Assembly: GCF_018704065.1 (NCBI RefSeq)
Contig: NZ_JAGUQP010000007.1
Location: forward strand, 1 to 61,662
Reading direction: 5' to 3'
Length of the DNA: 61,662 bases
From: Desulfovulcanus ferrireducens
GTDB taxonomy: Bacteria > Desulfobacterota > Desulfovibrionia > Desulfovibrionales > Desulfonatronovibrionaceae
Part shown: positions 42,228 through 61,662 of the stretch, one piece after another
How positions within the stretch are numbered: the first letter of the stretch is position 1
Layout: every line of letters begins with the position of its first letter
Made by a program: the position numbers and the translations under genes
The notes under the pieces: generated by a model
What the model was told of the DNA's origin: nothing
Database searches by the model: none
The model's input: only the letters and a program-made list of their open reading frames with translations

Positions 42228-42265
42228 GTTGACACTAATACTAAGGCTTGGTACTAATGTCAATT

Positions 42266-43931: not shown

Positions 43932-45239
43932 ATGAACTCAAAAAAGGACTGGGATCAGCTTCTCCAATTTGACCGCAATCATATCTGGCATCCGTACACT
44001 TCCATGTTGGATCCTCTGCCTGTTTACCCAGTGGTAGAGGCTAGGGGAGTACGCTTAAAACTTGCAGATGGCCGGGAACTTGTTGACGGCATGGCCTCCT
44101 GGTGGGCGGTAATTCACGGCTATAATCATCCTGTCCTGAATGAGGCCTTGGAATCACAGCTAAAAAAAATGGCTCATGTCATGTTTGGCGGGCTCACCCA
44201 CCAGCCTGCAGTTGAGCTTGCCAGCCTGCTTATTGAGATTACTCCCAAGCCCTTGCAAAAAGTCTTTTTTTCTGATTCTGGCTCTGTCTCTGTAGAGGTA
44301 GCCCTGAAAATGGCCCTCCAGTATTGGCAGGCTAAGGGAAAAACACGCAAAGCAAAGTTTTTAAGCCTGGCCAAAGGATATCATGGCGACACGTTTGGGG
44401 CCATGTCTGTTTGCGATCCCATAACCGGGATGCACAAACTATTTACCCATTTTTTGCCAAAAAATTTCTTTGTTTCAGCACCAGAATGTTCATTTGATGC
44501 TTCGTGGGATGAAAAATACATTACGGAATTTAAAACTCTTCTTCAAAAACATCATCAAGAGATTGCCGCGGTCATTCTGGAGCCCATTGTTCAAGGCGCT
44601 GGTGGCATGCGTTTTTATGCTCCGCAGTATCTACTTCGGGTTCGGGAACTTTGTACCCAGTATCAAGTGCTTCTAATTGCTGATGAAATTGCCACGGGCT
44701 TTGGCCGCACAGGCAAGCTGTTCGCCTGTGAGCACAGTCAGATCTGTCCGGATATCATGTGTTTGGGTAAGGCCTTGACTGGTGGATACATGACTTTGGC
44801 TGCCACTTTATGTACGGATGAAGTAGCTGAAACGATTTCGGGAGTCGAGCCCGGTGTTTTTATGCATGGTCCAACCTTTATGGCCAATCCCCTGGCATGT
44901 TCAGTGGCCAGGGCCAGCGTCCGGCTTTTGCTAAATTCTGCCTGGCAGGACAAGATTAAGAGCATCGAAAAACAGCTAAAAAAAGAGCTGGCCCCTTGCC
45001 AGGACTTGCCAGCAGTCAATGAAGTTCGTGTTTTAGGGGGGATTGGCGTTGTTGAAGTTAAAGAAAACGTTGATGTAGCCTGGATGCAAAAAGAGTTTGT
45101 ACGTCTGGGGGTATGGATCAGGCCTTTTTTAAACCTTATCTATATCATGCCGCCATACATCATTTCCACAGACGAGCTAAGAAGCCTAACCCAGGCTATT
45201 TTTTCTGTTGTCAGGAAAGTTGATGCTAAGTCTTCCTGA
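43932..45239 (+). CDS. bioA: Adenosylmethionine-8-amino-7-oxononanoate aminotransferase
   Basis: A 435-residue PLP enzyme of biotin synthesis, converting KAPA to DAPA with SAM as amino donor. Landmarks: IWHPYTSMLDPLPV at the start, GMASWWAVIHGYNHP (~55), FSDSGSVSVEVALKMALQYW (~110), LIADEIATGFGRTG (~240), and the PLP lysine in CLGKALTGGYMTLAAT (~277). The 3' end overlaps bioD by 17 bases. Confidence 0.95.
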   Translation: MNSKKDWDQLLQFDRNHIWHPYTSMLDPLPVYPVVEARGVRLKLADGRELVDGMASWWAVIHGYNHPVLNEALESQLKKMAHVMFGGLTHQPAVELASLLIEITPKPLQKVFFSDSGSVSVEVALKMALQYWQAKGKTRKAKFLSLAKGYHGDTFGAMSVCDPITGMHKLFTHFLPKNFFVSAPECSFDASWDEKYITEFKTLLQKHHQEIAAVILEPIVQGAGGMRFYAPQYLLRVRELCTQYQVLLIADEIATGFGRTGKLFACEHSQICPDIMCLGKALTGGYMTLAATLCTDEVAETISGVEPGVFMHGPTFMANPLACSVARASVRLLLNSAWQDKIKSIEKQLKKELAPCQDLPAVNEVRVLGGIGVVEVKENVDVAWMQKEFVRLGVWIRPFLNLIYIMPPYIISTDELRSLTQAIFSVVRKVDAKSS

Positions 45240-45876
45240 AAAGATTTTCATTACTGGCACAGATACGGATGTGGGCAAAACAGTTATTTCTGCCCTCCTT
45301 GTTCTGGGTCTAGGAGCCAAGTATTGGAAGCCAATACAAAGCGGCACAGAAGAGGGCACAGATGTCCAAAAAATTCAAAACATGACCGGACTGGATGAAG
45401 AATATTTTCTCCCCGAGGTTTACAAACTAAAGGCTCCTCTTTCCCCGCATCTGGCAGCTAGGCTGGAAGGTATAAGTATAGATTTAAACCGGATTGTCCT
45501 CCCTGAAACGCAAGGTCCGCTTATCGTTGAGGGAGCCGGAGGCGTTATGGTCCCGGTAAATGAGGAGCAGTTTATGCTTGATCTCATGCAAAGGCTCGCG
45601 CTTCCGGTTCTGGTTGTGGCCAGAAGCACTTTGGGTACCATCAACCATACTCTCCTGACCATTGACAAACTCCGTCGAGCAAGAGTTGAGATTTTAGGCG
45701 TGGTTTTAAATGGTCCTCAAAATATTGAGAACAAAAAGGCCATAGAAAAATATGGAAAAGTTAATGTACTGGCTGAAGTGGAGCCGTTGCCTGAGCTTAC
45801 GCCTCAGGGGGTACAAGAGGCATTTAGACGATGTTTTGGGGGAAAAGGGGAGAATGCACTATCCACCCCTTCTTAA
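45223..45876 (+). CDS. bioD: Dethiobiotin synthetase
   Basis: The start at ATG 45223 ([20 protein letters not shown]) with AGGAAA upstream is preferred to the TTG at 45208. The 217-residue P-loop enzyme has GTDTDVGKT around residues 11-19, KPIQSG (~40) and [13 protein letters not shown] (~105). It closes the ureido ring using ATP and CO2. It follows bioA with an overlap. Its 3' end meets the - strand chemosensory operon with a 4-base overlap (45873-45876). Confidence 0.93.
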
Positions 45877-47375
45877 AACAACTCAATTTGAGGGCCTTCG
45901 TCTTTATCTGTTGTTAGAGTTTTTCCCGTTACATTTTCATGTACCTGGCGTTCACTATGCATTTTGTACTTGGTAAGCATTTCGTCAGCCTTAAAATCCT
46001 GCAGGTCTTTGAGCTGTTCCTGGTCATTTTTGTGGATTATGTCCAAAAAATTTTGGGCATGCGAGTTAATTTTATTTAATATTTCTACCACATTTTCTAT
46101 TCTTTGACGTGTAATATCCTGAAATTGGATATTGCTCATGGCTTCCATAAGCAAATTTGCAGCTTCCTGCGTTTTATTGTGCATTTTGGCAAGCATCTCT
46201 TGGTGGATTCTATCCAACTCGTCATAGGCATGAAGTAGCTCAAAAAGCTGGTTGTTCAACTGATCAAAGTTACGTTTTTGTTTGAGGCTATATTCTTTGT
46301 CCAATGTAGATTCAAAACGGCGTTCGACACTTTTAACTAACCCAAAAATTTGTTTTTGCATCTCATCGGCTGCTTGTTGAGATTTTGTAGAAAGTTTGTG
46401 CACTTCATCAGCAACTACCGCAAAGCCTCGCCCGGCTTCACCGGCGCGAGCTGCTTCAATAGCTGCATTTAAAGCCAGGAGCTTAGTTTGATCTGCTACT
46501 CCTTTGACCAAGGTAATTAAATCTACTAATTTTCTTATATCATCTAAAACAAGGCGCATATTTTGTTCATTTTCCTGGGCCTCCACCAGACGCTCTTCGG
46601 CTCCTTTTTGCATTGATTCAAGAGTATCCTTCCAATGGGTAGAGTCTGATCCCTCTGTTAGTTGTTTTACTTGATCCATAGATTCAGTTACAACCTGTAG
46701 GAGCTCCTGGACCGATTTATCTACGTGATCTAGACGTTCAACAATATCTTTAGCAGCATTTTCTGTGTCTGTAGTTACTGTAAACAATTGATCCTGAATA
46801 ATTTTATTGGTTAGGGAAAACTCTTGTAGACTTTTTTCCACTTTTTCTACAAAAAGTGGATGAATTTCTAAAGTTAAATCTTTATCTGTTTCTCTATCTG
46901 TCTCTGAAGTTTCTTCAGCCAAGGTGAGACTGTTTAGTTCGTCAACCAATGCCGTTAGTTTATGAGAAATATTTGTTAAAGTTGTATACAATTCATGAAG
47001 AAAAGACACTGTATCGTCGCCTGAATTAAAGTCGTTAATTTGTGACAAAGAAACAGAAAGACTTGCTATATTTTCATCTCCCTTTAGTTTGGTTAACTCT
47101 TTATACAACCGGTGCATAGTCTCTATTAATTCTGAAACCTCACGACTAATCTGGCGGGTTAATTGAATTAACTCTTTCTTTTTTTGAAGCTCTGTTTCTT
47201 GTCCGAAATATTGTCCTATAAAGGAGCATAACCAGGTAATGAGCAGCAAGGCAGGAATAGACAGAGCAATATTTAGCCGGCTCGATGTAGCAAACACCCA
47301 GTGCAGACCAAATCCGCCCGCCCCAGCGAGTAGACAAACAAGCCACAGGCTTAGCCACCTTGGAATTTTTTTCAT
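45873..47375 (-). CDS. Methyl-accepting chemotaxis-type protein, two TM helices and no periplasmic domain
   Basis: The start at ATG 47375 has GGGAGGAG upstream. The 500-residue protein has two close hydrophobic helices (residues 6-27 and 35-52) with only a few residues between them, then coiled coil, so it has no external sensing domain. The signalling tip is [40 protein letters not shown] (~residues 300-340). A CheW/CheZ-like C-terminal region lacks the usual receptor tail for CheR docking. It is the last gene of the operon and may sense membrane state or internal cues. Confidence 0.85.
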
Positions 47376-47442
47376 TTTTCTCCTCCCATAAACAGGGACC
47401 AATTTGTTCGCTATTTTTACTTTATATAAATTTTTCAGTTTG

Positions 47443-47814
47443 TTAGGTTCCTGGCAAGACCCTCTTGATCACCGCTAACAGATCCTGGGCTTTTACTGGT
47501 TTGACCAACCAGCCAGTGGCTCCGGCTTTTTTGGCCTCCTGGCGTTTAGTCTGCTGGGACTCTGTGGTGAGCATAAGAATAGGTACGAAGCGAAATCCTG
47601 GTAGTTTGCGCAGTTCCTTGATCAAAGTCATGCCATCCATAATCGGCATATTAAGATCAGTGATAACCAGGTCAGGTTTCAGCCCTGCATTTATTTTGTC
47701 AAGCGCCTTCTGGCCATTTTCTGCCTTTTCAACCTTATAGCCGGCTTTGGTTAAAATAGTAGTCATACTTAAAAGTAAGGTGCTTGAGTCATCCACGAGC
47801 AAAATTGTTTTCAT
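47443..47814 (-). CDS. cheY: CheY-like response regulator
   Basis: A 123-residue single receiver domain. It starts [17 protein letters not shown] with acidic DD at 8-9, the phosphoacceptor aspartate in [12 protein letters not shown] (D~54), and the conserved Thr/Lys in MLTTESQ and GWLVKP. It carries the CheA phosphoryl signal. It is the second of two stand-alone receivers in this operon; the two differ enough to have separate targets. Confidence 0.93.
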
Positions 47815-47838
47815 AGTTATCCCCCTTTTTTACGAAAA

Positions 47839-48612
47839 TTATCGTTTCCACAAAGTTTCTAACTCTTCAGCTAACAGATGGTAGTCCATGGCCCCAGGGC
47901 TTTTGGGAGCATAATGACTAACCGGCTGGCCAGCAGCAAAGGCCTCTGCCAGGCGCACATTAGTACGGATGCCGCGCAAAATACGTTGCTGGCCAAATTG
48001 GGCGGTCAGTTCTCTGATTACCTGTTGATGCATTTTGATTCGTCGATCAAACATAACCGGAAAAAGCCCTATCAGTCTTAACTCTTTATTATAATTAGTA
48101 GCCACTTGATAAAATAGGCGTGCCATTTGGCGTACGCCAATTCCGGCGAGATAATGGGGCAAGAAAGGAATTAATACCCCATGTGCAGCAGCCAAAGCAT
48201 TAACCAGGATAAGGTCTAAAGTAGGTGGTGTGTCCAGGATAATACGGGCAAAAGTTTGGTGGGCAAGAAGATCAGCCAACTGGCGTTTTAAAATCAAGTT
48301 GTCAGGATTAGCTTTGCTTGTTTGAAAATCTAAATTTGCGGGCACGAAATAGAGATTTTCGAAAACCGTTTTATGAACTGCTGTGTGCAGGCGAAATTGA
48401 GGGTCATGAAACATGTCGTGGGCATAAAGGTCGAATTTTCTTATGTCTTTAAAGCCAAGCCCCCAACCAGCATGACCTTGGGTGTCTAGATCAATTAGTA
48501 AACATTTCTTGCCTTGCCTAGCCCACTCCGCAGCCAGGTTCACGGCAGTAGTCGTTTTGCCTGTTCCACCCTTACGGTTAGCTATGGCTACGATCAGTGT
48601 ATGTTGAACCAT
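47839..48612 (-). CDS. ParA-family ATPase of a chemosensory system
   Basis: A 257-residue MinD/ParA-type ATPase. The deviant Walker A KGGTGKTT is at 14-21, the Walker A' LIDLDTQGHAG follows, and LDTPPTLDLILVNAL is the switch II region. In some bacteria a ParA protein (ParC, PpfA) encoded in a che operon places the soluble chemosensory array evenly in the cell and ensures its inheritance. The same is likely here, since this operon also encodes a soluble receptor. It follows the small STAS-like gene by two bases. Confidence 0.88.
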   Translation of the reverse strand: MVQHTLIVAIANRKGGTGKTTTAVNLAAEWARQGKKCLLIDLDTQGHAGWGLGFKDIRKFDLYAHDMFHDPQFRLHTAVHKTVFENLYFVPANLDFQTSKANPDNLILKRQLADLLAHQTFARIILDTPPTLDLILVNALAAAHGVLIPFLPHYLAGIGVRQMARLFYQVATNYNKELRLIGLFPVMFDRRIKMHQQVIRELTAQFGQQRILRGIRTNVRLAEAFAAGQPVSHYAPKSPGAMDYHLLAEELETLWKR

Positions 48613-48614
48613 TT

Positions 48615-48854
48615 TCAGGCCTTATGTCTTACCTTTGCAAGTACTGTCTGCAAAAATTCGTCTTCCGGAGGGGAAGCAATTTCCGGCTGCAGGGCCATCA
48701 GAACCTGAAGAATGGCTGTGTGAATGTGCTGTGCCTGCTTAAGGTCTAGTTTGCCAGCAGGGTGCTCTTTTAACCAATCAAGAAGAGGCTCGGCCTCTTC
48801 GACCGTGCAAATATCTGAAAAAATTGCTGTATCTTCGGTAATTTTTATAGGCAT
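48615..48854 (-). CDS. Small STAS-like protein
   Basis: A 79-residue protein starting 10 bases inside the end of cheA and ending two bases before the ParA start, so it is translationally embedded in the operon. The pattern ILDLKQAQHIHTAILQVLMAL resembles the strand-helix core of STAS or anti-sigma-antagonist-type domains (LDLSxVxxIDxxGLQLL), without the serine. I cannot assign a function. The position between CheA and ParA suggests an adaptor. Confidence 0.6.
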   Translation of the reverse strand: MPIKITEDTAIFSDICTVEEAEPLLDWLKEHPAGKLDLKQAQHIHTAILQVLMALQPEIASPPEDEFLQTVLAKVRHKA

Positions 48855-51493
48855 TTGACCAACTCCTTAAGGTTAAGAACCAGAAGTACCCGACCATCGC
48901 CAAGCAGGGTGGCTCCGGCATAAATGCGAAATTTAGCCATCAGGCCTTCCAATGGTTTTAAAATGATGTCTACCCCCTCGTGAAATTTATCCACAATCAG
49001 GCCCAACTCCTCCCTGCCGGTATTGACTACTAATATCGCCTCTTCTTCAGTCTCTTTCCTGGCGTTTTCTTGGGTAGAGAGTTGAAGAACATCACCTAAG
49101 CGACATAAAGGAATCAGACGATTTCGTAAAATAACGGTCTCTTTATTTTTTATCAGATGGATGTCATTTGCGGGCACGCGTACTGTTTCCATTACACTTT
49201 CTATGGGTACTCCAAAGATTTCTCCTCCAACTTCAATCATGAGTACTCTGGTTACAGCCATGGTTAAGGGTAGAGAAAGGCTGATGACTGTACCCCGCCC
49301 TTTTTCGCTTTTAATGGAGATGCTTCCACCGGCATTTTCAACCATGGTTCGGACGGCATCCATACCTACTCCTCGACCGGAAACATCAGATACCTGTTCA
49401 GCCGTGGACAGACCCGGGGCAAAAATAAGTTGAAGAGCTTCCTCTTCTGTAATTTGGTCCAGCTTTTCTTCATCGATTAGCCCCTTTTCATAGGCCTTGC
49501 GTTTAACTATTTCCGGATCAATTCCTCGGCCGTCATCACTAATTTCAATAACTACCTGATCCTCAAGGTGAATAGCGCGTAAACGGACTTCTCCTTCTAT
49601 AGGCTTACCCAAAGCTTCTCTCTCTTCTGGGGGTTCTATACCGTGATCGATGCTGTTACGCAGTAGATGTACCAGTGGCTCTGCCAGGTCTTCAACAACA
49701 TTTTTGTCTGCCTCTGTCTCCTCTCCTTCTATAATCAATCTGACTTTCTTGCCTAGTTTTCGGCTTAGATCTCTTACTAGGCGGGGGAAGCGTTGAAACA
49801 CATGTGATACGGGAACCATACGCACTTGCATCACAGCTGTTTGCAACTCTTCACAGATACGATTAATGGCTCCGTATTGTGTTTTAAGTTCCTTAGCCAA
49901 CTCCCTACTCTGAAAAACCTCTTCAGCCCTTTTGGCCAGAAAAGGCAAGCTGTTTTTAGCCACCACCAGTTCACTTACAAGGTCCATTAGGACATCTATG
50001 CGTTTTTGGTCCACCTTTAACACCTTGATCGTCTGCTTAACCGGAGGGCTTGGTTTTACAACTGGTTTTTTTTCTGTTTCTTGCTGGACAGGGGCCTGTT
50101 TCTCCGGCTCCTTGCGGATTGGTTCTGGTTCAGGCTCTGTACTGCCCTTGGATGATAAGATGTCGTTTATAAAAGTGAGGAGGGGAGAAAAACTTTTTTC
50201 TTTTTGAGCCTTATCTATAAGGGCAGAAATTTCTTCCGTGCTTTTCTCTATTGCAGAGAAAGGCAGACAGCGTTTTAAGACCTCGCCAATACTTAATAAA
50301 CGTCCTGTCCATAGCTCAGGAGGGCAAGGAAGCTGGAGCAACTTTTGTTGAGTGCGCAAAATGTCGAGGGCTAACTTAGTGGTAAGTTCATCTTTTTGTC
50401 CTTCTTCCTGTGGGTAGTCAACCTTATTTTCTTCTTGTTCTTCAACAACTTCTCCTTCTGGCATTATGCCTGTGGCAACGGCTTGAACCAGATTTTTTAT
50501 CAGGCTTTCATTTGGTCCGCTTGGATGCTCCAAAACAACTTTTAACCAGCGCAGGGCCGAGGCCTGGAAAAGATCAGGACCAGCCACTTCCAGGGCCACA
50601 TCAACAGCTTTGAGCAGAGATGACCAGTCCTTGTTATCAATTAACTGTGTGGCGTCCTGAACAAACAAACCAAAGGGTTCGTTATCGCCAACTTCTCCTT
50701 GCGGGAAAATCAAGTCTTGTATGGAAATTCTGGCCTGCTGTACTTCTTCTTCCACATAGGTAAAAAGCTCCTTTATCTCTTCCAGGGAAGCCTTGGTCAA
50801 AGCATAAAATTGTACCAGGCAGGTAAATGGATCAAACTCGTTTATATCCGGCCACGGTTCCCTTGTTTCTATGCCAAACCAACAAAGTTCAGGGATTTGA
50901 CGCATGGTATAAAGGGGATCATCGCCATTAAAAAAACACTGTTCGTCTGGTATATAGGTTATAGCCAGCAAGGTATCATTTAGATTTTGGGCTTGCCGTA
51001 CAATAAGTTGTCGTTCCTCTTCACTGATTTTGGCCAGCCAATCAATATTTGAACCCAGCTCAGCTTCATGCCCAGTATCAGTTTCCTGTTGTCCGTTTTC
51101 CAGGGCAACATTACTAATCATGCCTCTTAACTTTGTTTTTAGTTCTTCACTTATCTCTTCTGCATCCGGCGACAACTTTTCTTCTGCTTCCAGGTCGTCC
51201 AGCCAAGTATTTACCTGATCCAAACTATCTAAAAGAATATCCACCATATCTGGAGATAGTTTTAGGCGGCCTTCACGAACAATATCTAGCACATCCTCGG
51301 CAGCATGAACCACATTGGTTAAGGGAGCAATATCAAATAAGCCAGAGGAGCCTTTAATGGTATGGATAGCCCGGAAGAGACCATTTAGTATGTTTAAATC
51401 GTCCGGATTATTTTCCAGGTGCAGAAAAGCCTGGCTGGCTTCTTCCAGAAGTTCGCGGGATTCGTTTATAAACTCTTGTAAAAGCGTATTCAT
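48845..51493 (-). CDS. cheA: CheA histidine kinase with long linker
   Basis: An 882-residue CheA. The N-terminal Hpt domain carries the phosphorylated histidine H44 (RAIHTIKGSSG). A long, poorly conserved region (~120-490) contains acidic and proline-rich parts where CheY-binding P2 would lie. The P3 dimerisation helices follow (~495-560), then the ATPase with N box LLRNSIDHGIEPPEER, G1 DDGRGID and G2 GRGVGMDAVR. The C-terminal CheW-like P5 domain starts VLMIEVGGEIFGVPIESV. It is the kinase core of this pathway. It overlaps both neighbours. Confidence 0.95.
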   Translation of the reverse strand: MNTLLQEFINESRELLEEASQAFLHLENNPDDLNILNGLFRAIHTIKGSSGLFDIAPLTNVVHAAEDVLDIVREGRLKLSPDMVDILLDSLDQVNTWLDDLEAEEKLSPDAEEISEELKTKLRGMISNVALENGQQETDTGHEAELGSNIDWLAKISEEERQLIVRQAQNLNDTLLAITYIPDEQCFFNGDDPLYTMRQIPELCWFGIETREPWPDINEFDPFTCLVQFYALTKASLEEIKELFTYVEEEVQQARISIQDLIFPQGEVGDNEPFGLFVQDATQLIDNKDWSSLLKAVDVALEVAGPDLFQASALRWLKVVLEHPSGPNESLIKNLVQAVATGIMPEGEVVEEQEENKVDYPQEEGQKDELTTKLALDILRTQQKLLQLPCPPELWTGRLLSIGEVLKRCLPFSAIEKSTEEISALIDKAQKEKSFSPLLTFINDILSSKGSTEPEPEPIRKEPEKQAPVQQETEKKPVVKPSPPVKQTIKVLKVDQKRIDVLMDLVSELVVAKNSLPFLAKRAEEVFQSRELAKELKTQYGAINRICEELQTAVMQVRMVPVSHVFQRFPRLVRDLSRKLGKKVRLIIEGEETEADKNVVEDLAEPLVHLLRNSIDHGIEPPEEREALGKPIEGEVRLRAIHLEDQVVIEISDDGRGIDPEIVKRKAYEKGLIDEEKLDQITEEEALQLIFAPGLSTAEQVSDVSGRGVGMDAVRTMVENAGGSISIKSEKGRGTVISLSLPLTMAVTRVLMIEVGGEIFGVPIESVMETVRVPANDIHLIKNKETVILRNRLIPLCRLGDVLQLSTQENARKETEEEAILVVNTGREELGLIVDKFHEGVDIILKPLEGLMAKFRIYAGATLLGDGRVLLVLNLKELVKCL

Positions 51494-51861
51494 CTTGTCC
51501 CTCCCACCAAGATGTTAACGATACTTTGGAGTACCTCTGGCTGCACGGGTTTAACCAGATAATAATTTGCCCCGGCCTCATAGGCCTGTGCTTCATCTTG
51601 CTCGCCGGCTTCTGTGCTAATCATAATGGCCGGGATAGACATTAAGTCCGGATTCTGGCGTACTTCTTTTAAAAAACGATATCCATCCATTTTGGGCATG
51701 TTCACATCTACGAGCAATAAGTCAAAATTATCACGCATCATCTTTTCTAATGCCTCTACTCCATTTGCTGCCTCTTCTGCTTTCAGCCCTATTTCTTCTA
51801 CTTGTTGACGGTGATACATGCGGACTGTAACTGCATCATCAACTATCAATACCCGTTTCAT
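51490..51861 (-). CDS. cheY: CheY-like response regulator
   Basis: A 123-residue receiver domain. It starts MKRVLIVDDAVTVRMYH (DD at 8-9), with the phosphoacceptor in LLLVDVNMPKMDGYRF (~D53), and Thr/Lys in MISTEAG and YLVKPV. It lies directly upstream of cheA, overlapping its start by 4 bases, so it is probably the main substrate of this CheA. Confidence 0.93.
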   Translation of the reverse strand: MKRVLIVDDAVTVRMYHRQQVEEIGLKAEEAANGVEALEKMMRDNFDLLLVDVNMPKMDGYRFLKEVRQNPDLMSIPAIMISTEAGEQDEAQAYEAGANYYLVKPVQPEVLQSIVNILVGGTR

Positions 51862-51863
51862 GA

Positions 51864-52709
51864 CTATCTCCAGGTAGTTAAGGGTTTTTGATAGACAATG
51901 GCCTGGGGGAATTTACGTACCTTGAACAGGGAAGTTATCCGACTCATGGACTCTGAATGCCCTAAGAAGATAATTCCTCCAGGGTTTAAACTATCGTAAA
52001 ATGCCTCAGCTGCCTTGCGACGGGATACATCGTCAAAATAAATCAAAAGGTTGCGACAAAAAATAAGATCAAAGTCCCGCATTTTTTTTGTATCCTCAAA
52101 GTCACAGATGTTTATTTGTCTAAAATCAATGGCTTCGCGTAAATCCTGGTCAATAAGATAACGCCCGCCAGATAACTGTTTAAAATACTTTCGTAAAATT
52201 TCTCGAGGTAAATATTGTACGGAACGAGAATTATATATTCCTTGCTTGGATTTTTCTAATACTTTGGTATCAATATCAGAGGCAACAATTTCTACATCTA
52301 CTTCATCAATAAGAGGCCAGTATTCCAAAAGGTAAATGGCAATAGAGTAAGGTTCTTCTCCGGTAGAGCAGGGTATGGACCAGATACGAATGAGCTCCTT
52401 TTTTTTGCGTTGGACAATTTCTGGCAATACAGATTCAACCATGCACTTTAGTTGATATTCTTCCCGAAAGAAATAGGTCTCATTAACAGTCATTAAATTG
52501 ACTAGCTCTTGGAATTCCTTGCCTGAGGCCTGAAAACGCATAAAGGTGAAATAAGAACGAAAGTTACGATGGCCAGTAGCTTTGATGCGTTCGATCAATC
52601 TTTTATCCACAAAATAGCGTTTGGAATCTCCAAAATAGATGCCAGTTTTGCGGTAAAAGTAGTCGCGAAAGCGTTCAAAATCAGCATCCGAAATCTTGAT
52701 TTGAGACAT
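51864..52709 (-). CDS. cheR: CheR protein-glutamate methyltransferase
   Basis: A 281-residue enzyme with an N-terminal helical domain (FERFRDYFYRKTGIYFGDSKR) and a SAM-binding domain with IPCSTGEEPYSIAI (~135-148), DIDTKVLEKSKQGIYN, and FDLIFCRNLLIYFD (~215). It methylates receptor glutamates, counteracted by CheB from the same operon. It starts two bases after the HEAT-repeat gene ends. Confidence 0.95.
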   Translation of the reverse strand: MSQIKISDADFERFRDYFYRKTGIYFGDSKRYFVDKRLIERIKATGHRNFRSYFTFMRFQASGKEFQELVNLMTVNETYFFREEYQLKCMVESVLPEIVQRKKKELIRIWSIPCSTGEEPYSIAIYLLEYWPLIDEVDVEIVASDIDTKVLEKSKQGIYNSRSVQYLPREILRKYFKQLSGGRYLIDQDLREAIDFRQINICDFEDTKKMRDFDLIFCRNLLIYFDDVSRRKAAEAFYDSLNPGGIIFLGHSESMSRITSLFKVRKFPQAIVYQKPLTTWR

Positions 52710-52711
52710 GA

Positions 52712-53344
52712 TTATGCTTCACTCTTAGTCCGTTCAATGACAGTATCTACGGCAAAGGCAATGTATGGTTCGTTGGCAAAGCGTTGTTTGACCTCTAAAA
52801 GAGCAGGGATCATTTCCGGAGTCCCTACTTCTGCCAGGCGATCCAAGGCAGCAGCCACCACATTTACATGGTCATCGGTCCTAATCACCTGTAAAAGCCA
52901 TTCAGGTACCTGGGCATGTGGAAGAACCTGTAAAATATCTACGGCAAAGATACGTACATCAGAATCAGGGTCGCGCAAGAGTTTCTCTATATAAGGAGCT
53001 ACGGCTTCGGGTAATGCCTGAAGAACTTCTATTACTTTATTGCGAAGCCCTGCATCATCACTGCGTAAAAAAGGAATGAGATTCTTTACAACCTCTTCTC
53101 CGCCAATGGTTAACAGGCTGTTCAGAATGCTCTCTTGCACGCTTAACACCTGTTCTTTCTGAAGACGACGGCACAACGGCTCTACAGCCTGTTCAAAACC
53201 AGCCAGTTCTCTGGCAGCCCAGCGTCGAATCTGTATATCAGGATCATTGAGTTGATTTATAAGTCCCTGAAAATTACGCTTCAAAGATCTTCGTTCTTCT
53301 TTAGGTTTTGATTTTTGTATATCTCTTGCTTTTTTTAAGGCCAT
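52712..53344 (-). CDS. HEAT-repeat protein in che operon
   Basis: A 210-residue all-helical protein. Four or five HEAT/PBS-lyase-type repeats are visible, each with a D(P)D-x-x-x-R-x-x-A-x-x-x-L pattern (DPDIQIRRWAARELAGF, DAGLRNKVIEVLQAL, DPDSDVRIFAVDILQVL, DDHVNVVAAALDRLAEV). Such repeats bind proteins. Related genes accompany che loci in Desulfovibrio and deltaproteobacteria; their role there is a scaffold or adaptor, undefined in detail. It lies between cheB and cheR. Confidence 0.8.
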   Translation of the reverse strand: MALKKARDIQKSKPKEERRSLKRNFQGLINQLNDPDIQIRRWAARELAGFEQAVEPLCRRLQKEQVLSVQESILNSLLTIGGEEVVKNLIPFLRSDDAGLRNKVIEVLQALPEAVAPYIEKLLRDPDSDVRIFAVDILQVLPHAQVPEWLLQVIRTDDHVNVVAAALDRLAEVGTPEMIPALLEVKQRFANEPYIAFAVDTVIERTKSEA

Positions 53345-53366
53345 GTTTTTATCTCCCTTTTGGTTT

Positions 53367-54416
53367 TTACATGGTCCATTTTATCAGGCGGTCAGCAATT
53401 TTATGCACGGGCAGAACCACATCTGCACCGCCGCGTTCTATAAGTTCCCTAGGCATGCCAAAGACTACAGCTGTTTCTTCAGATTCAGCAATTGTTCTTC
53501 CTCCCAGACGATGTAATTCTGTCATGGCTTCTGCTCCATCATAGCCCATGCCTGTTAGTTGGACGGCAATGATGTCTTTGGGATCAAGACACTTGAGAGC
53601 AGAGCGCACCATTCGATCTACACTGGGATGCCATAAAAGCTGCTTGTCCATAGGGAGGTTTACAGCTACCTTTCGTCCTAATTTTCGTCTGACCTCGACA
53701 TCCGCATCACCTTGGGCAATAAGAATTTCTCCGACCTGTAGGGGCAAGGGACGGTTTACCTCGCGTACTTCCAGTTGACAGCTTTGGTTCAAGCGTTTGG
53801 CAAAAACATTGGTAAAACGTGCCGGCATATGTTGGGCCACCAGTACAGGCAGGGGGAAGTCAGGGGGTAGCTGGGTTAGAATTTCTTCCAGGGCCCCAGG
53901 GCCACCGGTTGAACAACCTATCAGGACCAGACCGGGGATATCCCTAGTTATTTTGGGCCTAGCTTTTTTTATAGTGATTTTTTCGGGCTTTGCCCTATGA
54001 ATACGTAGTTTGGACCAACGCGTTCGTGAACGGGCCACAGCCCGTATCTTGGCAATGAGTTCTGGGCGAATATCCTTGATGCTTAAGGAAATCGTGCCCC
54101 CGGGCTTGGGTATATAATCCACTGCGCCCAGTTCCAGGGCCTCAAATGTGGCTAGAGCCCCTTTTTCGGTCAATGAGGAAACCATGATCACTGGACGGGG
54201 AAATTCGGTCATGATGTGACTTAAACAAGTCAACCCGTCCATTACGGGCATATTGATGTCCAGAGTAATGACATCGGGGTCTACTTTGGGAATTTGGTCT
54301 AAAGCATCCTGTCCATCTCTGGCCGTAAAAACTTCTATATCACCTTCTTCTTCCAGCATTTCCCGAATGTATTTGCGCATCAGGGCTGAATCGTCCACAA
54401 CTAAAACGCGCAGCAT
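53367..54416 (-). CDS. cheB: CheB protein-glutamate methylesterase
   Basis: The start is ATG 54416 (MLRVLVVDDSALMRK), since GTGGAGGAAAG just upstream is its ribosome-binding site; the GTG at 54428 is part of that site. The 349-residue protein has an N-terminal receiver (phosphoacceptor in VITLDINMPVMDG) and a C-terminal esterase with the catalytic Ser in GCSTGGPGAL, the His in VAQHMPARF, and the Asp in LTGMGYDGAEA. It removes receptor methyl groups and deamidates glutamines. Confidence 0.95.
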   Translation of the reverse strand: MLRVLVVDDSALMRKYIREMLEEEGDIEVFTARDGQDALDQIPKVDPDVITLDINMPVMDGLTCLSHIMTEFPRPVIMVSSLTEKGALATFEALELGAVDYIPKPGGTISLSIKDIRPELIAKIRAVARSRTRWSKLRIHRAKPEKITIKKARPKITRDIPGLVLIGCSTGGPGALEEILTQLPPDFPLPVLVAQHMPARFTNVFAKRLNQSCQLEVREVNRPLPLQVGEILIAQGDADVEVRRKLGRKVAVNLPMDKQLLWHPSVDRMVRSALKCLDPKDIIAVQLTGMGYDGAEAMTELHRLGGRTIAESEETAVVFGMPRELIERGGADVVLPVHKIADRLIKWTM

Positions 54417-54456
54417 CCTTTCCTCCACTGTTTTGAAAATTTAGGTTATGAGATGT

Positions 54457-56088
54457 CTAACTACCGGCTAACGCTTCCGGTTCCTTATTTTCCTCATTCA
54501 CATCCGCAAGTTCGGATACTTCCTGTTCATCTAACAGTTTACTAACGTCTAGAATCAAGATCATCCTGTTCTGATCTTTCAGGTTGGCCACTTTACCCAT
54601 TATTCGCGCCTGGTCTGCAGATAGTTTTGGTGAGTCTTCAATCACCTGGCTTGGAATGCGCAACACTTCAGATACAGCATCCACTATAAATCCACTGCGC
54701 AATCCATCAATGTTAAAGACAATGATCCGCTGGCTATCCTTACGTTCAATGGCCTTTAGGCCAAAACGTTTGCGCATATCAATTACAGGTAAAACAGTAC
54801 CCCGCAAGTTGATCATTCCTTCAATAAAGTCTGGCGTTTTGGGCACAACATTCATTTCTTCAGGAATCAAGATGATTTCCTGTATTGCATCAATCATTAC
54901 GCCATATTCCTGATCAGCCAGTTGGAATACAACTAACTGAATTTCTTCATCTTCTGTATTTTGTTGATTTAGATCAGCTGTCCTCATCTCTTCCTCCCCG
55001 TCCTCAAACTCCTGCCCTGTTTCAACAGCGGCCTGCATGGCTGGATGTTGAAACAGATTTTTTGCCGAGAGCACAGAAATAAGCCTTTTTCCTCCATTTA
55101 AACGACAAACCGCCTTTATCTCATCTAGCTCTCCACTGTTTGCGAGTAGACCAGGCATCTGCTCCCAATCTTCTTCAGCAACATATAAGACTTCCTGTAC
55201 TCGATCTACCACGATACCGACAGTTTGTGGACGTCTGACAGCCCCATTGTCCAGGGTAACAACTAGAATACGGTTACTTTCATCCACTTCCGCATTAGTT
55301 AATCCGAACATCCGGCGCAAACTAACCAGGGGCAGCATCTGGTGACGAAAATTAATCAGCCCCAAGACATGAGGATCTGTCTGCGGGACATGATTGATTT
55401 CTTCTGGAACGCGTACGATTTCTTTGAGCTCTGAAATCTCAAAGGCATATTCCTGGTTGTCCAGGAAAAAGCTTACAAGCTGGCGGGCACTGTCGTTTTC
55501 TTCCTCTTCGCTTTCCTTCCGTTCTATAAACCCCTGGCTCTCCCTTTTTTGAACCTCTGAGTCTGCCTCCTCCAGAAGAGATGAAAATTCTTTCTGGATT
55601 AAGGAGCGGACATCTAAAAGTTGAATCAGGCTGTGTCCTCCCACGTCTTTAACTACTCCGCTCAGTAATTCTACGCGTACTGTTGATTGGACAGAGTCCA
55701 CATCCTCAATTTTGTCTGGCTCTACGCTTAATACACGGTCTACCCGGTCCACCACCAGACCAATGGGGTGGCCAGAATCAATAATGATAACCCTACTAGT
55801 CTCAGTAAGTTCTGAGGCTGGCAGGCCTAAGTTAAGACGTAAATCTAGCACAGGCAGGACAGTCCCCCGCAAATTTGCCAATCCCATAAGACTTGCCGGG
55901 GTCAAGGGCACACTAACTGTTTCCGGGACCCAAATAATTTCTAGGACTGTATGCATGGGAAAGGCAAAACACTCTTTCCCAATATAAAAAGTTATGTATT
56001 GATTAAGATCTTCTGCTTCTATCAAGTCCAAACCTTCTCCTTCAGGTGGAGAATGGTCCGCTGACATTTTCGTTGCTTGCATCGCCAT
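54457..56088 (-). CDS. Triple CheW-domain coupling protein
   Basis: The start is ATG 56088 (MAMQATK), eight bases after AAGGAGG. The 543-residue protein consists of three tandem CheW domains, near residues 15-165, 205-345 and 385-515. Each has a xYxFEI/xYGVxI strand, a VP box (IIWVPE, IVRVPE, IILIPE), a G(L/M)xNxRGxxLPxxxLR segment, and the second-half VD motif (VVDRVDRVL, VVDRVQEVL, IVDAVSEVL). The linkers are acidic. CheW normally links one receptor to CheA. Three domains could bridge several receptor tips or kinases, and the neighbouring receptor has two tips. Confidence 0.9.
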   Translation of the reverse strand: MAMQATKMSADHSPPEGEGLDLIEAEDLNQYITFYIGKECFAFPMHTVLEIIWVPETVSVPLTPASLMGLANLRGTVLPVLDLRLNLGLPASELTETSRVIIIDSGHPIGLVVDRVDRVLSVEPDKIEDVDSVQSTVRVELLSGVVKDVGGHSLIQLLDVRSLIQKEFSSLLEEADSEVQKRESQGFIERKESEEEENDSARQLVSFFLDNQEYAFEISELKEIVRVPEEINHVPQTDPHVLGLINFRHQMLPLVSLRRMFGLTNAEVDESNRILVVTLDNGAVRRPQTVGIVVDRVQEVLYVAEEDWEQMPGLLANSGELDEIKAVCRLNGGKRLISVLSAKNLFQHPAMQAAVETGQEFEDGEEEMRTADLNQQNTEDEEIQLVVFQLADQEYGVMIDAIQEIILIPEEMNVVPKTPDFIEGMINLRGTVLPVIDMRKRFGLKAIERKDSQRIIVFNIDGLRSGFIVDAVSEVLRIPSQVIEDSPKLSADQARIMGKVANLKDQNRMILILDVSKLLDEQEVSELADVNEENKEPEALAGS

Positions 56089-56104
56089 CACATCCTCCTT
56101 CCCC

Positions 56105-58033
56105 TTATGAACTCTGGAGTTCATCTGCGACAGAAGCGATCTCCTCTGTGGCTGCAGCCAGTTCTTCTATTCCTTTGGCTTGCTCTTGTGCTGCTGTACT
56201 TGCTTCAGCTGTTGCTGATCCGGCCTCCTCAGCCGCAGCCGCGATTTCATCAATGCCTTTTTTGGTTTGGGAGAGAGCAGTGACGATCTCAATGCTGGCA
56301 TCGTAAATAACTTGGTTGCCATTGACTACATTTCTCATTTGGGAGGAAATATCATCCAGCTTCTGCGTAGTGCCTTCCGCCTTTTTCACTTCCTCCATAG
56401 CTGCGTTCACAATTTCTGCCAGGTCGTTGCTTACGTACATGATCTGATCCTGAATACTTTTGACCAACTCCTTGACCTGCTCTGCATTTTCAGCCGCATC
56501 ACTGGCGAGGTTTTGAATGTCTGTAGAAACTACAGCAAAACCTTTCCCGTACTCCCCGGCCCGCGCAGCCTCTATGGCTCCACTGACTGCCAGCATGCTT
56601 GTCTGGATGGCCACAGTAGCAATGGTATCCACAATTTTATCCATACGCCGCACAATTTTATCCAATTGCTGCATGGCTTCCCGATTTTTTAAGCTTTCTT
56701 GCAGATTGTTCTTAATGCCTTCTATCATTTCTTTTACAGCTTCGATGTTTTCTGCCACAAAGTTTGCCATTTTTTCGCCTTTGTTCATGGCTTCTTTGGC
56801 GCTGTCTTCAGTCACCCGGGCATTTTTTTCGATCTGACTGATGCTGGCCGCAATTTCTTGTACGGCAGCACTCTGCTGGTCAGCCCCTTTGCTAATTTGG
56901 GTTATAGCCGCCATAATTTCCTGGCTGGAGCGGTGATTTTCTTCAATGGCAGCAGCCAGTTCCTCGGCTGCAGCAGCGACTTCTTCAGCACTCTTGGTTA
57001 TATCTGTGCTGTTTTTTAAATCTTCAGCCAACTCTTCCAGTTCTTGTGCTGCCTTTTCACTTTGTTCTAGAGCAATCTTTTGCTGCTCAACATTATTTAA
57101 GGCCTCTTCGCAGGCCGCTGCTTGTTCTTCGGCTGCTGCGGCAATGTCTTCCGCTCCTTTTTGTGCCTCAACAGAGGCCTGTTCCACTTCTACAGCATTC
57201 TGGGCAATCTTCTCTGCGCTTTGATAGATTTCTCCCATGCCATTTTTGATTTCTTCGAGCTGTGCAGTTATATTAGTTCCCTTATCGGCCTCTTTTTTGA
57301 CTGTTTCCGCTGAAGTATTTATACCCCTACTCAAGGCTTGCATCTGAGTCTGAATCTGCTCCACCAGCTGAGCAATATTGACGGCATTTTTTTCGGTCTT
57401 TTCGGCCAATGTACGTACTGTGTCGGCAACTACCGCAAAACCTTTTCCATGTTTACCTGCCCGCGCTGCTTCTATCGCTGCATTTAAAGCCAATAGATTG
57501 GTTTTATCCGCTATCTTGATTACGGCTTTAACTGTTTCATTTATCTTGTCCGCCTGCTTTTCCAGTTCAGCCATCTTTTCTACAGACCCTGATTGCCTTT
57601 CGGCTCCTAGAACAACACTTTCCACCAAGGCTCCAATTTCTACCCGTGCTTCTTCAAGAAGCTGCTGTAATTTTTTAACTTGAGTCCTGGATTCTTCAGC
57701 ATTGTCTGCTTGTTCCTTAACCCGTTTTACTATCTGGTTCATGGCAGCGAGAGATTCTTGCGTTGCCCCGCTTGCCTCTTCTGCTCCACCAGCGATCTGT
57801 TCCATGGCCTTGGCTAATTCTTCTACAGCCGTTAAAGCCTGGGTAACACCGCTGGCCAATTCTGTTGAGGCCATAGCAATACGCTCGGCCGCTTGTTGCT
57901 GTTTAGCCAATGTCCTGGCTCTGCGTCTCCTTTCTTCGGCCTCTCTTCTCGCTCGGGTAGCAGAAGTATCCTGCTTAACCGTATCGGAATTAAGCCGTCT
58001 TTTTGACTCTGATACTTGTTTTTTTAAAGGCAT
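56105..58033 (-). CDS. Soluble chemoreceptor with two signalling tips
   Basis: The start is ATG 58033 with AGGAGG seven bases upstream. The 642-residue protein has no membrane helix. A short basic N-terminus leads into continuous heptad coiled coil. Two MCP hairpin tips are seen: [21 protein letters not shown] at ~174-194 (canonical), and [21 protein letters not shown] at ~474-494 (variant, with SMLAVSG replacing NLLALNA). Alanine/glutamate-rich methylation-type helices flank each (residues ~55-100, ~350-400, and the C-terminus). It is probably a cytoplasmic receptor. The first gene of the operon. Confidence 0.88.
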
Positions 58034-58108
58034 AAACAATCCTCCTGCTGTGTTACGTTTTTCAGTTTGTGTTTAATGTTTATTATTTTATTATTCTAAT
58101 CAAAAAAC

Positions 58109-58147
58109 AAAAACGGCCTGTAGCTCAGAAGGCCACGGACCGTTTTT
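58109..58147 (-). promoter_or_regulatory. Terminator-like hairpin in the che operon leader
   Basis: On the - strand, AAAACGG...CCGTTTT and an inner GGCCT/AGGCC compete or stack, followed by TTTTTGTTTTTTG, about 70 bases before the first start codon. It may end transcription from upstream or act as an attenuator. No known riboswitch core is seen. Confidence 0.4.
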
Positions 58148-58961
58148 ATTCGAAAAAGTTAGTAAATATTATAAATTGAGTTGGTGACAGACTAAATAAT
58201 GGAATAAAAAATAAATAATTTTTTATCATTTATTTTTAAAGTTTACTTTTTGGAAAGATAAAATATTATTTACGTATCAATTTGACACTACTTATTCTAG
58301 TATATACTTATCAATTAGTTAGAATCTAGCTTGTGTGATTTTTTGCAGTTTAAAATTTGAGATTGCGTAAGGTGTAACGCTACTTGCTATGACTTAGCGC
58401 TTATACTGTTATTGTTATGTTTAAAGTGAGGCTTAATTATACATTACTTAATTTACAGTTAAAATGTTTGTAATAGTCTCTCATGCCAGGGTGACAACCT
58501 CTTGTTAAGAGTGTTTAGGTAAAATTTAAACTTATTTGGTAGTTACCGTGTAATTTACTAATAAACTAGGACTTTTTGATTTGAGGCCACGTTAACCACA
58601 GCTAGCCTTTCCCCGGACCTTCTTTAAAGCGGGAGTAACAGATGTGAGGATATAACACAGGCGTTTCACTGAGATATTCAGGTTAGGAGGGTTCAAAGGC
58701 TTTCCAATAATTATAGAGCAAATTTTGTGTCAAAGAATAGATGGTATCTATTCCAGATTTTAAAATGTATCATAAAACTTGCAAGCCCTACGTGTCAAGT
58801 TGAGCCTGAAAGATTTTCAACCCTACTTTAATGGCCATGTTCATCTAGTTGATTTTATTCGAAATGTATGAGGACGACCTTTGCCCGGATGTGTTTGGCG
58901 GGTTTGTAAAGAGAAAATCGCACTCCTGGCTTAACTTGGAATGATACGAATTGTTGACTCT
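58148..58961. other. Repeat-bearing intergenic region upstream of the che operon
   Basis: About 800 AT-rich bases. 58325-58370 is a remnant of the palindromic element (TTTTTTGCAGTT, then TTTGAGATTGCG). Otherwise I see no gene or RNA. The che operon promoter must lie near 58150-58300, but I cannot place it. Confidence 0.5.
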
Positions 58962-59130
58962 GGGGGCATTCGAAATGCTGCACTTGGGTTGAGTTGGTTG
59001 ATTTGTTGAGTGAGGTGGTGGGGAGGGTAAGGCGAGTAGGGTGGAGATGGGTGATATGAAAATGACTTTTGAGACATTAGAAACTAGGCCAATGCAGGTG
59101 GAGCAGAGGAGATATGGGAGTCCGTATTTC
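58962..59130 (+). mobile_element. Truncated ISKra4-type copy (copy B)
   Basis: Starts GGGGGCATTCGAAATGCTGCAC, then the GTGAGT and GGTGGAGATGGGTGATATG tract, ATGAAAATGACTTTTGAGAC, and the junction to GGAGCAGAGGAGATATGGGA, as in copies A and C. It ends just before the MerR-like gene. Confidence 0.6.
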
Positions 59131-59152
59131 TGTCCATGTACTTGTTAAGTCC

Positions 59153-59842
59153 CTAATTATCATCTTCCTCCATTTCTTTTAACTTTTCTGGCGTGAATTG
59201 GAGCATAATCCGTTTGGTCCAAAACTGGCATTTATTCATTTTCTCTTTTAAAATTTTGAGCTCCTGGACTAGTTGTTCTTCCAGTTTTTGTTGCTGAACC
59301 AGAACTGTCTGCAGGCCCGCTTCCAACTCTTCAACCCTTTTTAAAATATCGTTGAATTGTCTATCCGGGTTTGCGTTTTGTCTCTTCTGCTCCCGCCAAA
59401 TGAGCCACAAAGCTTTTTTCATCTTTCGGTATCCCCGGTCCAGAACCGCAATGTCCGCGCGCAACTTTTGTTCCATACTTATGGCTTCAGCCATCTTTTC
59501 CAGCGTCTTGGATTGAGATCTGGCCAATTCCATAAAAAAATCTTTGGGCTCATCAACCAGTACAGATGGAGAAAATTCTTCTTTCTGTTCATTGCTTAAC
59601 TGGGGATTTTGTGGGAACTTGCGGGATAAAATTTTTTCCACTTCCTCGCTATTTTTATTTTGAGCAAATTCATTAACGATTAAGGCAAAGACTTCCAATG
59701 CCTCTGGTTTATAACGTCGTTTGCGGCCTTGACCAATATAGGGCAAAAACCGCTCGAATTTATCCCGATAATAGCGGATATTGCTCTCAGGTACATTTAG
59801 CCTATGGGCTATCTCTTTGATGGTTAATAGTTCATCAGACAT
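59153..59842 (-). CDS. MerR-type DNA-binding protein with coiled-coil tail
   Basis: A 229-residue protein. Residues 5-65 are a MerR helix-turn-helix and wing (LTIKEIAHRLNVPESNIRYYRDKF, then GRKRRYKPEALEV). A long helical region follows (95-205), with coiled coil near 165-205 for dimerisation, and no recognised ligand-binding cysteines. Such MerR/RacA-like proteins can be regulators or DNA-organising factors. The target is unknown. The gene is bracketed by two directly repeated truncated ISKra4 copies, suggesting it moved as a unit or was left after deletion. Confidence 0.75.
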   Translation of the reverse strand: MSDELLTIKEIAHRLNVPESNIRYYRDKFERFLPYIGQGRKRRYKPEALEVFALIVNEFAQNKNSEEVEKILSRKFPQNPQLSNEQKEEFSPSVLVDEPKDFFMELARSQSKTLEKMAEAISMEQKLRADIAVLDRGYRKMKKALWLIWREQKRQNANPDRQFNDILKRVEELEAGLQTVLVQQQKLEEQLVQELKILKEKMNKCQFWTKRIMLQFTPEKLKEMEEDDN

Positions 59843-59914
59843 AATATAGATGTTCCTGGTCCATTAGTTTGGACTTAAGAATAACCTATGTTATACTTTT
59901 AGTAAACTAAGGGA

Positions 59915-60113
59915 AGGGGGTGTATCCGATGGCTGCACTTTGGTTGAGTAGTTGAGTGAGGTGAGTAGGGTGGAGATGGGTGATATGAAAATGACTTTTG
60001 AGACATTAGAAACTAGGCCAATGCAGGTGGAGCATAGTGGATATGGGATTCCGAAGTAGAATTTTTCCCTGATTGGCTCCAGAGTCCGGGTTATTACCAC
60101 TGCACAGGTTTGA
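59915..60113 (+). mobile_element. Truncated ISKra4-type copy (copy C)
   Basis: Begins GGGGGTGTATCCGATGGCTGCAC and continues like copies A and B. It extends into DNA matching 590-690 of the window (TGGATATGGGATTCC..., GATTGGCTCCAGA, TATTACCACTGCACAG), i.e. an internal piece of the transposase gene with frame-breaking changes. It stops at about 60113. No right end. Confidence 0.65.
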
Positions 60114-60142
60114 TTTCTGAATTATGATAAAATTTTGCTAAA

Positions 60143-60610
60143 GAGCTTGTAGCCGAATCTTTTTATCAACTTAATTTCCATGGTTTTATTTCAGTCTTGG
60201 TTTCTTTCATGCTGGTACAAAGACTTGGACCCATTTAAATCTTGCTTGCGGACAGAACATAATGGTGTACTTTGGATAAACGAATAGACTTTTAATTCCT
60301 AAGTTGAGCGATTTTCACTCAATGGGTGAGATTGCCACGGACAGCTTCGCTGCCCTCGCAATGACAATTCCGCCCCTGTCATTGCGAGTGGAACAAAGTG
60401 TAGCGAAGCAATCTCAAAGTTTGAGCTGCAACAAAATCGCTCATAAATTTTAGATAGTTATGGTCAATCCCGCAAAACATTTAGCCCATTCACCCCGATG
60501 CTCTGTTTTTCCGCAGGCTTCCCTAAGATGGGTTACCCAAGCCGTTTGTAATGCATTTCAGTAACCAGGACTTTCAATCAGCGGCTAAAAAAGGATTTGG
60601 CCATAGGCTC
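60143..60610 (+). mobile_element. MITE-like element, copy 3, interrupted by a palindromic element
   Basis: Ends GAGCTTGTAGCCGAAT and ATTTGGCCATAGGCTC are degenerate versions of the 16-bp repeats of copies 1 and 2, and internal landmarks (ATGCTCTG, AAGATGGGTTACCCA) are in order. It is 468 bases long because a second element (60298-60453) has inserted in its middle. Confidence 0.65.
60298..60453. mobile_element. Palindromic dispersed element, copy 2, nested
   Basis: CCTAAGTTGAGCGATTTT at the left and AAAATCGCTCATAAATTTTAG at the right bracket two mirrored GAGATTGC...CATTGCGAG blocks. It matches 41199-41409 in reverse orientation and interrupts MITE copy 3 at a point that is continuous in copies 1 and 2. 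Confidence 0.65.
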
Positions 60611-60747
60611 CTATAATGTGGACGAACTGATGGAGTGCTTAAAAGTGTATTGCAAGGTCGTAACTCCTTAGAGTATCACTCTTTATCCTCAGAGTTGCCG
60701 CTCAACTGTTGGACTGGAGTTGGATAAAATGGTCAAAAAAGCAAAAA

Positions 60748-60774
60748 GGGTTTACGGATATTGGCCGTAAACCC
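60748..60774. terminator. Bidirectional terminator next to the tRNA fragment
   Basis: GGGTTTACGG / CCGTAAACCC, a perfect 10-bp stem. On the - strand it is followed by TTTTTGC, 12 bases after the tRNA 3' end, so it is probably the original terminator of that tRNA. On the + strand TTATTTTTA follows. Confidence 0.75.
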
Positions 60775-60785
60775 TTATTTTTATG

Positions 60786-60830
60786 TGGCCCGCCCTGCAC
60801 GATTCGAACGTGCGACCTACGGATTCGAAG
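60786..60830 (-). other. 3' half of a tRNA gene, probable attachment (att) site
   Basis: On the - strand: CTTCGAA (anticodon loop, reading TCG for arginine), stem TCCGT, variable AGGTC, T arm GCACG-TTCGAAT-CGTGC, acceptor AGGGCGG, then G and CCA. The 5' half that should pair with it is absent: the next bases (GCAGGGCATC) cannot form the anticodon stem. Duplicated tRNA 3' halves starting at the anticodon loop mark the far end of elements integrated by tyrosine recombinases. Confidence 0.65.
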
Positions 60831-60934
60831 GCAGGGCATCAATTCAATAACTGACCTGAAAAATTTTATAAAATCAACACGTTGCCGAATATTGGCGATC
60901 AGGTTTTTTCTCGCAATTTTCGTTTTTTTTCTCC

Positions 60935-60970
60935 AACTGCCAACCAAACTGCCAACCAATTGCCAGCTAA
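60935..60970. repeat. 12-bp direct repeats near the att site
   Basis: AACTGCCAACCA occurs twice in tandem (60935-60946, 60947-60958), followed by a degenerate third copy (ATTGCCAGCTAA). About 105 bases from the tRNA fragment, this fits integrase arm-binding sites. Confidence 0.5.
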
Positions 60971-61010
60971 ACCATTCCCTAGCATGCCAGGGTTTTAAGA
61001 TGGCATCCAT

Positions 61011-61662
61011 AAAATTTCTCCCTTAGACTTTAAGGCAATAATAAATTCTGAAGCATTTCGCCTCAAATATTTTAGATTTTCTGGCTGCATTTATACCGAT
61101 CAGTTCTTCCTATCAATTACCCATCAATTAAATTTTTACAGGTAATGTTAAACAATATCAATAAGTTAGATTAAACAGACAAACTTTCAAAACCCGTTTT
61201 ATCAATTACCCATCAATTAAAAATGTCATTATGCCCAAAAAGGCACATACTTCATTAATTTCTTAGGAGCCTTTTCATCAAAAGGTTTTAGCATCCCATC
61301 TTCCACTGCTTCTTTAATATATCGTGACACTGCAGCAAAATTTCTCCCTTAGACTTTAAGGCAATAATAAATTCTGAAGCATTTCGCCTCAAATATTTTA
61401 GATTTTCTGGCTGCATTTATACCGATCAGTTCTTCCTATCAATTACCCATCAATTAAATTTTTACAGGTAATGTTAAACAATATCAATAAGTTAGATTAA
61501 ACAGACAAACTTTCAAAACCCGTTTTATCAATTACCCATCAATTAAAAATGTCATTATGCCCAAAAAGGCACATACTTCATTAATTTCTTAGGAGCCTTT
61601 TCATCAAAAGGTTTTAGCATCCCATCTTCCACTGCTTCTTTAATATATCGTGACACTGCAGC
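61011..61662. repeat. Exact 326-bp tandem duplication reaching the window end
   Basis: Bases 61011-61336 are repeated at 61337-61662, without a difference that I can see. The unit contains the 22-mer TATCAATTACCCATCAATTAAA twice (61111, 61200, and again at 61437, 61526). The second unit stops at the last base of the window. Confidence 0.85.
61229..61351 (-). pseudogene. C-terminal coding remnant inside the tandem repeat
   Basis: On the - strand, a frame ending at 61229 reads AAVSRYIKEAVEDGMLKPF, then a lysine-rich stretch and MKYVPFWA before the stop. It resembles the C-terminal winged-helix tail of AlbA/RecG-type ATP-binding or Fic-like proteins, though I cannot name the family. The frame opens only from about 61351, because the duplication cuts it off from its upstream part. 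The same tail occurs again at 61555-61662, where the window ends, so that copy may belong to a full gene beyond. Confidence 0.45.

Follow-up and report, generated by a model that had tools for sequence, protein, structure and literature searches.

The window analysed here, a whole stretch of 61,662 nucleotides from contig NZ_JAGUQP010000007.1 of Desulfovulcanus ferrireducens, carries a set of chemosensory genes lying in one direction (Table 1). The gene of main interest opens with an ATG at 58033, has AGGAGG 7 nt ahead of it and runs on the minus strand to 56105. An earlier note, made from the letters alone, had read its product as a soluble chemoreceptor with two unlike signalling tips 300 residues apart; the letters agree exactly, with the tips starting at residues 179 and 479. 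Pfam MCPsignal recognised two stretches (E 7.7e-58 for the whole 642-aa protein) that scored 111.6 and 87.6 bits against a cut-off of 34.6, so that both tips belong to genuine MCP signalling domains. The Pfam search gave no further domain above cut-off, and hence no sensor domain, and a search for a hydrophobic membrane segment found none, in agreement with the claim of a soluble, sensor-less receptor.

Table 1. Features of the two-tip receptor and of the neighbouring operon (positions in the window).
Feature	Position	Strand	Basis
Double-signalling-domain soluble chemoreceptor, DosM-type, 642 aa	56105..58033	-	Pfam MCPsignal x2, RBS, syntenic homologues
N-terminal basic tail, residues 1-43	57905..58033	-	tail also net positive (+3 to +9) in homologues
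Signalling unit 1, residues 44-342	57008..57904	-	gapless internal repeat, offset 300
Tip 1 (canonical), residues 179-193	57455..57499	-	consensus common to most other receptors of the genome
Conserved helix break STD, residues 342-344, tip-to-tip midpoint	57002..57010	-	non-helical in AlphaFold2; most homologues share the motif
Signalling unit 2, residues 344-642	56108..57004	-	gapless internal repeat
Tip 2 (divergent), residues 479-493	56555..56599	-	conserved among DosM homologues
CheW3, three CheW domains, F9 marker	54457..56124	-	Pfam CheW x3, E 8.8e-93
CheB	53367..54428	-	Pfam
HEAT-repeat protein, same slot conserved in relatives	52712..53344	-	Pfam and synteny
CheR	51864..52709	-	Pfam
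CheY-type receiver 1	51490..51861	-	Pfam
CheA, 882 aa (Hpt, dimerisation, ATPase, CheW domains)	48845..51493	-	Pfam
ParA-family ATPase, in about half of related clusters	47839..48612	-	
CheY-type receiver 2	47443..47814	-	orthologues occupy same slot in related clusters
Short membrane MCP (MCP2), candidate partner receptor	45873..47402	-	CheZ-like motif at 46101-46136

When the protein was aligned with itself, an offset of exactly 300 brought the two units into gapless register, and 89 of 299 positions were identical. The protein is therefore an old head-to-tail tandem duplication of 299 residues without a linker.

Assignment to the F9 class

Read from the two-tip receptor gene onwards, the operon encodes CheW3, CheB, a HEAT-repeat protein, CheR, CheY, CheA, ParA, a second CheY and MCP2. 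The F9 gene set is thus present in full, with cheA, cheB, cheR and cheY accompanying dosM and cheW3, and the receptor has the tandem MCP signalling domains, the lack of a sensor or membrane segment and the adjoining CheW3 of a DosM. The combination of DosM and CheW3 is the stated signature of the class, and 98% of DosM proteins have neither a sensory domain nor a membrane segment (PMC9321776). Given the CheW3 gene directly next to it and a remaining operon that matches F9 clusters elsewhere, the product is almost certainly a DosM, of the F9 class by gene set. The earlier interpretation was right about a soluble two-hairpin receptor, but it overlooked that this architecture is already known.

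The cluster resembles cluster I of Vibrio cholerae, also F9, in which DosM is VC1403, CheW3 VC1402, CheA VC1397 and the membrane MCP VC1394 (PMC7534058). VC1403, as likened here by its published description, is likewise a soluble protein with two MCP signalling domains and no sensor, and it adjoins a triple-CheW gene; CheA, CheB, CheR and CheY proteins and a short membrane MCP are also common to both clusters (PMC7534058, PMC9321776). Apart from the organism, the difference lies in the ParA-family gene, which is in the cluster here. The host genome contains four CheA genes and a FliM gene, indicating that the F9 system coexists with other chemosensory systems and flagella.

Two features of the operon and its receptor invite a comment on positioning. 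The ParA gene is reduced to a deletion remnant in two same-phylum clusters (L179 and L181) and, by analogy, its product may position the array; PpfA reportedly positions the cytoplasmic clusters of Rhodobacter. A strict association between ParA and the basic tail of DosM was not supported, since tails persist in clusters without ParA. The tail itself is conserved among most DosM homologues and frequently opens with M(A/P/G)L(x)KK; residues 1-21 have a pLDDT below 50 in AlphaFold2. By analogy with FrzCD of Myxococcus (PMC5716589), it is a candidate binder of the nucleoid or of ParA. FrzCD, too, is a cytoplasmic receptor; its N-terminal tail is positively charged and binds DNA, although FrzCD has only one tip.

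Conserved spacing and a conserved difference between the tips

Two-tip homologues occur within the family and the order, elsewhere in the phylum, in Denitrovibrio and in two Vibrio genomes and, among the matches listed, also in an acidobacterial MAG and in Microvirga. The tips lie exactly 300 residues apart in all complete homologues but two. One exception is Denitrovibrio, whose second unit has taken up a CZB zinc-binding domain, so that the spacing grows to 402 residues; the other has 299 residues and reflects a single-codon gap in one error-prone assembly. Similarly, an offset of 300 gives the best self-match in every complete homologue except that of Denitrovibrio (offset 402), and between tip 2 and the C-terminus the complete homologues have a near-constant 163-166 residues.

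The gene order is matched in same-phylum relatives, in the acidobacterial MAG and in Vibrio, and partly in Microvirga and Denitrovibrio. Indeed, the other F9 clusters (L156 from the acidobacterial MAG, L155 from Microvirga, L194 and L195 from Vibrio, and L177-L191 from the same phylum) have the same order, the 300-residue spacing and the tip difference described below; they differ in that ParA is missing or a remnant in some and in the CZB insert of the Denitrovibrio DosM. In the CheW3 proteins, each of the three CheW domains forms its own clade across species. A triple-CheW gene like the present one was carried by 5 genomes out of 297 in the order, by 13 out of 395 in the phylum and by 2 out of 118 in Vibrio, in keeping with the published prevalence of roughly 2% for full F9 (PMC9321776). 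At the sensitivity used, V. metoecus and V. mimicus, chosen as stand-ins for V. cholerae, gave no triple CheW, and two other Vibrio genomes were positive.

We compared the tips over 61 positions in 21 homologues. At 17 of these positions the tip 1 and tip 2 sets have no residue in common, which bears out the claim that the tips are unlike each other. The fixed differences, written tip 1 first and numbered by their E. coli Tsr equivalents, include 373 (D vs I/V/M), 377 (L vs M), 380 (L vs V), 382 (A vs G), 402 (E/T/A vs D) and 403 (V vs I). These differences suggest either that the two tips were already distinct when the lineages split and have stayed so, or that they moved between lineages together. 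That the difference is constant across phyla is compatible, as far as sequence can tell, with different partners, as the earlier note suggested, or with different positions.

DosM as such and the F9 class are known; what appears new here is the conserved geometry together with the conserved tip difference. Our literature search found no report of this exact spacing and conserved difference, but the primary DosM paper (PMC5027440) lay outside that search, and that paper may have recorded them already. Few signalling arrays with two baseplates are known, those of DosM among them; the fixed spacing and consistent tip difference make two questions testable, namely whether the baseplates are alike or different, and whether each DosM dimer has one or both tip types.

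Topology of the two-tip receptor

The earlier note proposed that a chain going through two hairpins could form either a double-length or a side-by-side array unit, and these are indeed the two natural options. The explanation best supported for the family is the former, in which a full F9 system has this protein as its DosM and, the rod topology included, we put its probability at about 55%. DosM arose by head-to-tail duplication, without a linker, of one cytoplasmic MCP signalling domain, and as a receptor would now scaffold a cytoplasmic array of two layers. Two DosM chains would pair lengthwise to give a rod; CheA/CheW would be bound by tip 1 in one baseplate and by tip 2 in the opposite one, and the N- and C-termini would meet mid-rod near residue 343. 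Since DosM has no sensor domain, input must come from other receptors, and co-assembled MCP2 or others in the genome could provide it; signalling and adaptation would proceed via CheA, the CheY proteins, CheB and CheR.

In cryo-tomography of V. cholerae, DosM bridged the two baseplates of an array in the cytoplasm, and this was read as a rod (PMC7534058, PMC9321776). It is from that DosM that we infer the rod and the double-baseplate behaviour of the present protein. The geometry is consistent with this, in that the N-arm (44-193) and C-arm (494-642) together equal the 300-residue tip-to-tip span, and one signalling unit matches the Thermotoga cytoplasmic receptor 2ch7 at equal length (Foldseek TM 0.90 by target, rmsd 2.0). 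However, a straight span of 300 residues at about 0.148 nm per residue would measure about 44 nm, and the inter-baseplate distance in V. cholerae is 35 nm (PMC3964821); tips reaching beyond the baseplate density may explain the difference.

Evidence against a rod came from AlphaFold2. Modelled as a whole from a five-sequence alignment, the chain (pLDDT 90) had helices at 22-191, 193-341 and 345-641 and turned back at 342-344. The isolated connector (225-463) formed a hairpin with a pLDDT of 92.8 that turned at the same residues; it best matched a coiled-coil hairpin of Smc, which is antiparallel (234 residues, rmsd 2.9). Both runs used a single chain, in which a homodimer cannot form and which is therefore biased towards intramolecular packing; the fold-back was read from matching structures only, and a known rod was not included as a control. 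Published tomography favours the rod, whereas the single-chain calculations, being predictions, favour the fold-back.

Such a fold-back would make DosM a single-chain pseudo-dimer: the chain would turn at the STD break, the units would lie side by side in a four-helix bundle, and both tips would sit adjacent at one end. Each molecule would then amount to a receptor dimer that is asymmetric by construction, supplying both the inner and the outer subunit for the trimer of dimers, and two layers would stand base to base in a sandwich with a rod-like outline, differing from the rod only in connectivity at the midplane. Several observations fit this arrangement. The predicted turn falls on a conserved motif, STDxxKSAE, at the exact midpoint between the tips, and the compact bundles to which the whole-chain model aligns involve residues close to tip 1 as well as to tip 2. 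In addition, the units are equal in length and free of indels in nearly all homologues, as in-register packing needs and a rod does not, and several of the fixed tip differences fall near positions described as trimer or CheW contacts in E. coli Tsr numbering. Outside the tips, conservation peaks at 39-53, 347-361 and 626-640, which would form the base end of such a bundle; these ends do not discriminate, however, because the three peaks converge in the rod and the fold-back alike. Nor does array spacing alone tell the two apart, given their near-identical outline in a two-layer array, and a test of arm charge complementarity was uninformative, giving no signal even for the obligatory N1-C1 pairing.

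Engineered Tsr~Tsr (PMC4692393) provides a further comparison, since it too joins two receptor subunits head to tail in one chain. It required connections of about 19-22 residues and failed with 9 or fewer, which argues against a linker-less fold-back, albeit with a HAMP domain to cross there. Moreover, Tsr~Tsr is artificial and membrane-bound, with identical tips and a long linker, whereas DosM is linker-less with unlike tips. Weighing these points and the published rod interpretation, we consider the pseudo-dimer a serious contender that falls somewhat short of even odds. Its stronger form, a natural single-chain asymmetric dimer whose adjacent tips are specialised for inner (trimer) and outer (CheA/CheW) positions, seems to us rather unlikely. 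If true, the published rod would be two such DosM molecules base to base, and an inner/outer asymmetry that is positional only in ordinary homodimers would be encoded in sequence.

We also considered that tip 2 might belong to a degenerate coiled-coil derivative that no longer binds Che proteins and merely spaces the array. Tip 1 has the consensus common among this genome's receptors, whereas tip 2 occurs in no other receptor there and reads LAV[NST]G where the usual consensus is LALNA. Nevertheless, the conservation of tip 2 comes close to that of tip 1 (mean pairwise identities of 0.74 and 0.78, respectively, with 48% between the two tips and about 0.42 in the arms), and the residue equivalent to Tsr E385 is invariant in both tips, and that equivalent to R388 nearly so. 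The best PDB match of tip 2 is the Thermotoga receptor tip of 3ur1/4jpb, reportedly crystallised with CheA/CheW. A degenerate tip is thus very improbable.

Finally, an assembly duplication, which the earlier note had named as grounds for refutation, or an annotation artefact such as collapsed tandem receptor genes, has practically no chance of being correct: identity between the halves is only 30% at the protein level and 44% at the DNA level (longest common word 13 bases), the frame is continuous, and the two-tip layout recurs across several phyla, single-contig genomes included. A chance origin of the two-tip pattern is excluded as well.

Additional observations

A 12-letter stretch of MCP2 (46101-46136, minus strand) resembles the active site, D-x-x-x-Q, of the CheZ phosphatase. 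MCP2 scored E 1.2e-5 against NCBIfam CheZ, far below the cut-off, and 0.0014 against Pfam CheZ; the motif Q[FL][QE]D-x-x-x-Q was retained in all 14 aligned MCP2 homologues. From its sequence, MCP2 may be a receptor that carries its own CheY phosphatase.

Another contig of the same genome (C20; L201, 358-2166) encodes a further soluble MCP-like protein with two tips, of 602 aa, in which the tips are degenerate. It has a CheZ-like motif, MQFHDITRQQ, between its tips, and its gene heads an operon with STAS-like, CheY, CheA and CheR genes.

In the Denitrovibrio DosM homologue (L153, 6642-8909), the CZB insertion was recognised with E 4.4e-14, and a scaffold receptor may here have gained a sensor.

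An Rfam scan of 44000-61662 found no RNA family. Elsewhere in the window, at 41805-43588, lies an IS200/IS605 element in which the TnpA transposase gene (minus strand) overlaps the start of the gene for the TnpB RNA-guided endonuclease (plus strand).
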